A DNA stretch of 64,000 nt from an uncultured Bacteriovoracaceae bacterium (lineage in GTDB: Bacteria; Bdellovibrionota; Bacteriovoracia; Bacteriovoracales; Bacteriovoracaceae): the NCBI GenBank assembly GCA_937931205.1, contig CALHBF010000008.1:1-64000 (forward strand), written 5' to 3'. The position numbers and the translations under genes are program-made. The notes under the pieces were generated by a model that was given only the letters and a program-made list of their open reading frames with translations, did no database searches and was not told the DNA's origin. Within the stretch, counting starts at the first letter, position 1. Every line of letters begins with the position of its first letter. Positions 26,392 through 28,383 of the stretch are shown here, piece by piece.

Positions 26392-27296
26392 TGAGTACTG
26401 AAATTAAGTCACTTGATCTTATTGATTATAAGTTTAAGATCAAAAAATATCTTCTCATCATCTTTATTCCCATTATTTTCATTCTTAGTTTTTTGAGTTA
26501 CTTCCCTATCAGTGGCAAACTTAATGATTTAATTCTGAATGCTCTAAAAAGCAGCGGCTGCCCGGCAACTTTCACTCAGCTGGATATCGAATTTCTTCTT
26601 CCTAAAGTGATCATCTCTGACCTCGCTGTTCCAATGACCTGTACGGGTGCGGCAGAGGATCTTTTCTTCAAGAAAATTACGATCAATTATCACCTGATTA
26701 GTTTCTCACCTTTCGGTATTCCATTTAAGGCTGATACCCGTCTTTATGGACAAGACCTTTCCCTTCATTATGTTCTGGGCATAGGTAAGCAGTCGGTGCG
26801 TCTTAAAGACCAAAAACTTGATCTCTCTAAACTTGCTCCTCTGTTTCCTCAATTGAAACTAAAAGGGAGCCTGACTGTTGATATGCGCGCGGGCCTTGAT
26901 GACAACGCACTCTCTGAGCTTACTCTCAAGGCTTCAAGTTCAAACTTCGAACTTCCTGGCCAGAATATCCAAGGTTTTGCTCTTCCACACATGAATATTA
27001 AGGATCTATTTATTGATATTGAAACGGCCGATGACGCCAAATTAAAGATCAATAAATTCATTATTGGTGGAGCGAATCAGGACTCTCCTATTCGCGCTAA
27101 TTTCGTTGGTAACATCAACCTCTCCAAGACCAATACGATGAGCTCACAGCTGGCCCTTAGTGGTGAAGTGAAGCTTTCTGAAGGAATGAAACAAAGCATT
27201 CCTCTCTTGGAGATGATGCTTGAGAATTACGCCATAAAAGATGGCTTTTATCAGTTAAAAATTGGTGGTACATTAGGCGCTCCTACTTTCAAATAA
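26391..27296 (+). CDS. gspN: Type II secretion protein N
   Basis: N-terminal TM, beta-rich AsmA/GspN-like sequence, end of operon. Confidence 0.75.
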   Translation: MSTEIKSLDLIDYKFKIKKYLLIIFIPIIFILSFLSYFPISGKLNDLILNALKSSGCPATFTQLDIEFLLPKVIISDLAVPMTCTGAAEDLFFKKITINYHLISFSPFGIPFKADTRLYGQDLSLHYVLGIGKQSVRLKDQKLDLSKLAPLFPQLKLKGSLTVDMRAGLDDNALSELTLKASSSNFELPGQNIQGFALPHMNIKDLFIDIETADDAKLKINKFIIGGANQDSPIRANFVGNINLSKTNTMSSQLALSGEVKLSEGMKQSIPLLEMMLENYAIKDGFYQLKIGGTLGAPTFK

Positions 27297-27304
27297 AGGA
27301 AAGA

Positions 27305-27469
27305 TGGGGTTGGCCAATGTTGGGGTGGCCAACTGAAAAGCAGTTTGTGAAAGCTTACCGACCTGTAGAAGACGGCAGGAAAATCAAAATTGTGCACGTA
27401 GCTCTCTAAGATGAATCTTTTTTTACAGATAAACCTTTCGAGCTAGACCCCAACATTGAGCACCCCTAC
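27305..27469. mobile_element. Candidate MITE-like non-autonomous element (165 bp) with TIRs and 9-bp target duplication
   Basis: TIR core CAATGTTGGGGT (27315-27326) / ACCCCAACATTG (27447-27458), outer GGGGT (27306-27310)/ACCCC (27462-27466); direct repeats AAGGAAAGA at 27296-27304 and 27470-27478; no coding capacity. Confidence 0.55.
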
Positions 27470-27483
27470 AAGGAAAGAGCGCG

Positions 27484-28383
27484 ATGCTGATCGAGTCCAT
27501 TGAAAAATCCCTAAAAACTTCTGTTCATCACCCTGAACTCAAAAAAATTATGGATTATGCAGTACTGCCTGCTGGAAAACTCTTTCGCCCAAAACTAATT
27601 GAGGCCATAGCTTTGGATCTAGGCCCCGTACTCACAGAAGATCATCTTCATCTCGCTTCTGCGATTGAAACCCATCACGCTTACACTCTCGTTCATGACG
27701 ATCTTCCTAGCATGGACAATGACATGTACCGCAGAGGGAAACTATCAACCCATGCGGCGTTTGGTGAGTGGAAGGCCATCCTTGCAGGCGATGCTCTTTT
27801 GATTCACTCATTCAATGAAATTAATAAAATTCAGAACTCACAATTAAAACTCATTCATAACTTTTTTGGCTGGGCCAATGGTGCGAAGGGTTTAATCCTT
27901 GGCCAATTTCTAGATTTAGGTGCTCAGGGCAAGGCCAACTTAAATCAAATTGTACGTATTCATGAATTAAAAACGGCAAGACTCATTCAAGCGGCCATCA
28001 TCGGCAGCTACCTTATAGCCCGACCTTATAAATTTCAGGAAATGAAAGACTATTTTCTTCTAGGAAATGTTATTGGCGTAAGTTTTCAGCTACTGGATGA
28101 CCTCGGTGAATTGACAGAGAAAACAGTGAGTGAACATGAGTTGGAAATTAATCCTTTTCTCCTCTACCCTGATGAAACGCTGGAAGTTCTCACAAAGAAA
28201 CTTGATCAACTCTACAGTATCCTCAAAAAACAGAAACTAGTCCACACCACTGCTATGATGAAAGAATATCTGGATAAGAATAAAAAGAATTTTACGGAAA
28301 ATTCAGAGATCCTATTAGGTCACTTCCCAGAACAGTTCAAAGAGAAAATGGCCAACTGGATTACCAGCTTCTCTTCTCTTTAA
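27484..28383 (+). CDS. ispA: Polyprenyl (farnesyl/geranylgeranyl) diphosphate synthase
   Basis: LVHDDLPSMDND first Asp-rich motif, AILAGDALL, QLLDDLGE second motif. Confidence 0.88.
   Translation: MLIESIEKSLKTSVHHPELKKIMDYAVLPAGKLFRPKLIEAIALDLGPVLTEDHLHLASAIETHHAYTLVHDDLPSMDNDMYRRGKLSTHAAFGEWKAILAGDALLIHSFNEINKIQNSQLKLIHNFFGWANGAKGLILGQFLDLGAQGKANLNQIVRIHELKTARLIQAAIIGSYLIARPYKFQEMKDYFLLGNVIGVSFQLLDDLGELTEKTVSEHELEINPFLLYPDETLEVLTKKLDQLYSILKKQKLVHTTAMMKEYLDKNKKNFTENSEILLGHFPEQFKEKMANWITSFSSL

Follow-up and report, generated by a model that had tools for sequence, protein, structure and literature searches.

The window, a stretch of 64,000 nucleotides from the genome of an uncultured Bacteriovoracaceae bacterium, carries a 165-bp non-coding segment (27305-27469, + strand) enclosed by the 9-bp direct repeat AAGGAAAGA (27296-27304 and 27470-27478). 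It is bordered upstream by a gspN-like gene, the final base of whose TAA stop is the first base of the left repeat, and downstream by a polyprenyl synthetase (ispA-like) gene (27484-28383, + strand), for which the right repeat doubles as Shine-Dalgarno sequence. The name of the upstream gene rests on its position behind a PilM/GspL-like gene, and its predicted protein had no Pfam match. The segment contains no ORF of at least 80 amino acids, and a search with Rfam models gave no match inside it up to E = 5. Its ends form imperfect inverted arms. The left arm (27306-27326, + strand) consists of an outer GGGGT, a single-sided insert of the GTTGG type and the inner sequence CAATGTTGGGGT, and the right arm (27447-27466, + strand) of ACCCCAACATTG, the complement of the left inner arm, followed by an outer ACCCC. 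A 12-bp perfect core, CAATGTTGGGGT, is formed by 27315-27326 and the complement of 27447-27458. Direct repeats, enclosed segment, imperfect arms and core were all found where the initial annotation of this DNA had placed them.

Searches of the host genome by BLASTN and with a covariance model detected exactly three copies of the element, on two contigs and in both orientations; the model, made from the three copies, recovered those three at full length and none further. By BLASTN, the other two copies were located on contig C15 (223586-223716, + strand, and 231101-231253, - strand), with identities of 80% and 74% to the copy in the window (copy 1). Copy 2 (locus L004 of the same contig, 970-1135) lies between an M23/EnvC-like gene and the gene for a CtpA-like protease, antisense to both, while copy 3 lies in sense orientation between TonB/TolA-like and TolB-like genes; in this tol/ctpA neighbourhood the two (L004:974-1127 and L004:8500-8654) are about 7.4 kb apart and oppositely oriented. 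Blocks GGGGTGGCCAACTGAAAA (27322-27339), TAGCTCTCT (27399-27407) and TTCGAGCTAGACCCC (27437-27451) are the same in all three copies, and GTAGAAG(A/G)CGGCAGGAAAAT (27365-27384; all on the + strand) shows one difference across them. TAGCTCTCT is partially complementary to the next block, TTCGAGCTAGACCCC, which has exactly three genomic sites at up to 2 mismatches.

The target duplications of copy 1 (AAGGAAAGA, spacing 174) and copy 2 (AAAATGATC(T), 9 or 10 bp, spacing 175) differ in sequence, as the initial annotation anticipated for a repeated insertion, and join the element at the homologous base. The duplication of copy 3 has decayed, with GGAG left on both sides (spacing 170); according to the corresponding junctions of relatives (e.g., CTATAGGAGCGATTATG), this GGAG is part of the original site. 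A 9-bp direct repeat by itself is weak evidence, and a single copy would be merely suggestive. The window holds 190 pairs of 9-bp direct repeats at 100-320 bp spacing, and a 9-mer repeat around arms of at least 9 bp arises about 9 times per 100 random 64-kb sequences, in a scan of 9-mers with at least three letter types that left out two-letter repeats, AAGGAAAGA included. The question of a chance origin is settled by copy 2, which is built alike, with a 9/10-bp repeat at near-equal spacing, together with the empty sites described below.

Empty sites were found at all three loci in relatives of the same genus. The gspN/ispA junction is empty in 15 relatives with an orthologous prenyl synthase, only a few bases separating stop and ATG, and the direct abutment of the two genes that had been proposed as ancestral is thus observed in these genomes. 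The tolA/tolB junction is empty and equally tight in 25 relatives, and the envC/ctpA gap measures 23-51 nt in 24 relatives vs. 204 nt in the host. Since the IspA protein of the relatives is about 45% different from that of the host, these sites come from other species rather than from sister strains. In eight same-genus genomes (L053-L060) the best prenyl synthase match was 35-39% identical and in a different context, which suggests that these genomes lack the T2SS-linked gene or that it was not assembled.

The element itself had no match in the 25 genus relatives, either by BLASTN or with the covariance model, and no confident match in 378 other genomes of the phylum. The one weak match, in genome G150 (covariance model, 29 bits, E 0.005 per genome, 379 genomes), lies half inside a coding region and was discounted as probably due to chance. 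Exact matches to GGGTGGCCAACTGAAAA at 18 loci of public genomes were at chance level, and none of the 18 was accompanied by the rest of the element; the best of them, in a Bdellovibrionales MAG (L012:3472-3527, - strand), has TGTTGGGGTGGCCAACTGAAAA, a stretch of 22 bases of the left end only, and may also be due to chance. Twelve viral matches to a gapped pattern were attributed to chance, the right-end pattern had no match in viral sequences, and BLASTN against phages and plasmids gave no match to the element. The three insertions are separate events.

A single copy with the same intergenic sequence conserved in relatives, the outcome that would have spoken for a structured leader RNA, was not observed; there are three copies, and the relatives' junctions are empty. 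The segment does lie on the sense strand just upstream of the prenyl synthase gene and can fold as a single long closed stem, as a conserved cis-regulatory leader or intergenic RNA of that gene might. However, it is missing from all relatives at the gspN/ispA junction, occurs at two other junctions unrelated to this one, at one of them in antisense orientation, has no match in Rfam and is flanked by target duplications, at copy 2 as well as here. Given the empty sites at three of three loci and the absence of the element elsewhere, which indicate that it moved, the leader RNA was rejected as extremely improbable. Insertion into an existing palindrome was also ruled out, as the empty sites show none.

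It is therefore very probable that the approximately 165-bp segment is a copy of a small non-autonomous, MITE-like mobile DNA element, whose movement most likely depended on a transposase provided in trans. The MITE-like insertion originally suggested is borne out by three dispersed copies, target duplications on two of them and, for each of the three loci, empty sites in relatives. The transposase, presumably of the DDE type, would cut the target with a 9-bp stagger, and filling in of the gap would produce the 9-bp target duplication; its putative binding sites are the invariant blocks close to the ends. Of the features by which MITEs are recognized, short length without a long ORF, several dispersed copies, a duplication of fixed length (9/9 and 9-10/10) and empty sites were all found, but not terminal inverted repeats conserved between copies, which is why "MITE-like" is preferred to membership in a named family. 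The outermost bases, where a TIR is normally best conserved, are not the same from copy to copy. Pairwise identity among the copies (approximately 73-80%) points away from a single recent burst. With duplications still intact at copies 1 and 2, but a difference of 20-27% between the copies, divergence in the source lineage probably preceded insertion.

The search for an autonomous IS sharing the ends, proposed along with the insertion, was unsuccessful: neither an autonomous element with matching ends nor any further occurrence of the conserved end blocks was found in the host genome (about 86% complete). As regards the three transposase models used, the IS256-type and IS1-type models had no match in the host genome, and DDE_Tnp_1 had a single match, in a broken gene without sequence similarity to the element. 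This transposase-like gene (L125:1267-2422, - strand) is split into several frames, and a short ORF beside it (from 631, + strand) resembles an outer-membrane efflux gene in truncated form; the locus is probably an old IS insertion. The parent of the element may have been lost, or may lie in an unassembled part of the genome.

By published description, the element resembles two known systems, although membership in neither is claimed. YPAL / RU-2 of Yersinia, which is intergenic, non-autonomous and about 168 bp long (PMC2229807), is similar in these respects and in its target duplications, empty and filled sites and inverted repeats set in from the ends. Its duplications, however, range from 3 to 26 bp, in contrast to the clean 9 (or 10) bp found here, and it is abundant and has an open reading frame, whereas the present element has three copies and no long ORF (PMC2229807). 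MITEAba12 of Acinetobacter (113 bp, parent ISAba12) is likewise small and non-coding with a 9-bp target duplication, but is described as highly conserved and shares 16-bp near-perfect TIRs with its coresident IS (PMC6382973), while our search yielded no parent and the arms vary by copy. ERIC/IRU and Correia/NEMIS repeats are also small, intergenic and mobile, with transcripts forming one long stem closed by both ends; their ends are mostly TA (PMC2229807), as opposed to the unconserved ends and 9-bp duplication of this element. The three copies are best read as a new family, ordinary in kind, of small mobile elements that are non-autonomous and similar in layout to YPAL/ERIC-type elements.

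The term "TIR" applied to the arms in the initial annotation holds in that each copy has inverted arms, but not in that their sequence is conserved between copies. The arm sequence beside GGGG is ATGTT, ACTCA or TCTTG depending on the copy, with outer matched bits GGGGT, TGA and ATT, and the arms of different copies share mainly GTTG, an AA pair and GGGG, the remainder being different. Each left arm nevertheless pairs best with its own right arm (scores of 12.5, 12.5 and 10.5, vs. -0.5 to 8.5 for foreign arms), and five arm pairs, counted on a MAFFT alignment of the three copies (A3), vary on both sides, which was matched by 2 of 500 shuffles and not by slid controls. Together with the stable folds of the whole element on the sense strand (z from -3.3 to -4.9), these observations would fit a mobile element in which selection on a transcribed hairpin maintains the pairing of the arms, the stem being functional in the operon mRNA, for instance as an RNase III site or stabiliser; selection of this kind has also been put forward for NEMIS-type RNA. 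We consider this rather unlikely. The opposite strand folds about equally well, the antisense orientation of copy 2 relative to its genes implies no fixed RNA strand, and the comparison is based on three sequences. Once the arms are removed, the interior is no more stably folded than shuffled sequence, whichever strand is taken (z from +0.7 to -1.6), and its predicted folds differ from copy to copy; among the three copies the two inner helices showed no covariation, one being invariant and the other varying on one side only. Because the interior folds at chance level without the arms, its conservation is better understood at the level of DNA sequence than of RNA structure.

As read from the alignment of three copies, the variable arm pairs beside GGGG are Watson-Crick and include no G-U, an indication that the matching takes place in DNA. 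In copy 3 the stem is longer by one G-C pair, inserted on both sides (GGGGG/CCCCC); the only other difference from copy 1 in the inner arm is one matched change. Both observations are in line with homogenisation of the arms of a mobile element at the DNA level, in which template switching or hairpin-primed repair would copy one arm onto the other, mutations and indels thereby appearing in both. This process is a plausible candidate, if somewhat short of an even chance; the support is indirect, as among three copies an intermediate with one changed arm is not recognisable, nor can the process be separated from selection for pairing. Considering the lack of G-U beside GGGG, the pair gained by both arms in copy 3 and the antisense orientation of copy 2, we lean, from three copies only, towards the DNA explanation of arm matching over RNA selection. 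Pairing selection and homogenisation concern the upkeep of the arms and are not alternatives to insertion. It is improbable, though conceivable, that the mobilising enzyme, transposase or other, reads the folded arms, for example as a single-stranded hairpin beside the fixed inner blocks, so that the ends drift while keeping their pairing; if so, the ends of this mobile element would be defined by structure, in combination with a 9-bp target duplication.

As read from the sequence, the Shine-Dalgarno of ispA (AAGGA) is given by the right-hand duplication, GGAG is kept before tolB at copy 3, and copy 2 lies upstream of the GGAG that precedes ctpA. Translation of the downstream gene should therefore survive in all three cases, the ribosome-binding site being restored or left intact, which would explain why insertions in tight operon junctions are tolerated. 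With the loss of close stop-to-start spacing, translational coupling of the gspN-like and prenyl synthase genes was probably lost through the insertion. The annotation of this region is corrected in that the upstream gspN-like and prenyl synthase genes were ancestrally contiguous. The element offers a natural example of how a small element, absent from the 25 genus relatives searched, splits operon junctions without disturbing the signals for translation, and its arms, specific to each copy yet matched, raise the testable question of how such elements maintain their palindromes.
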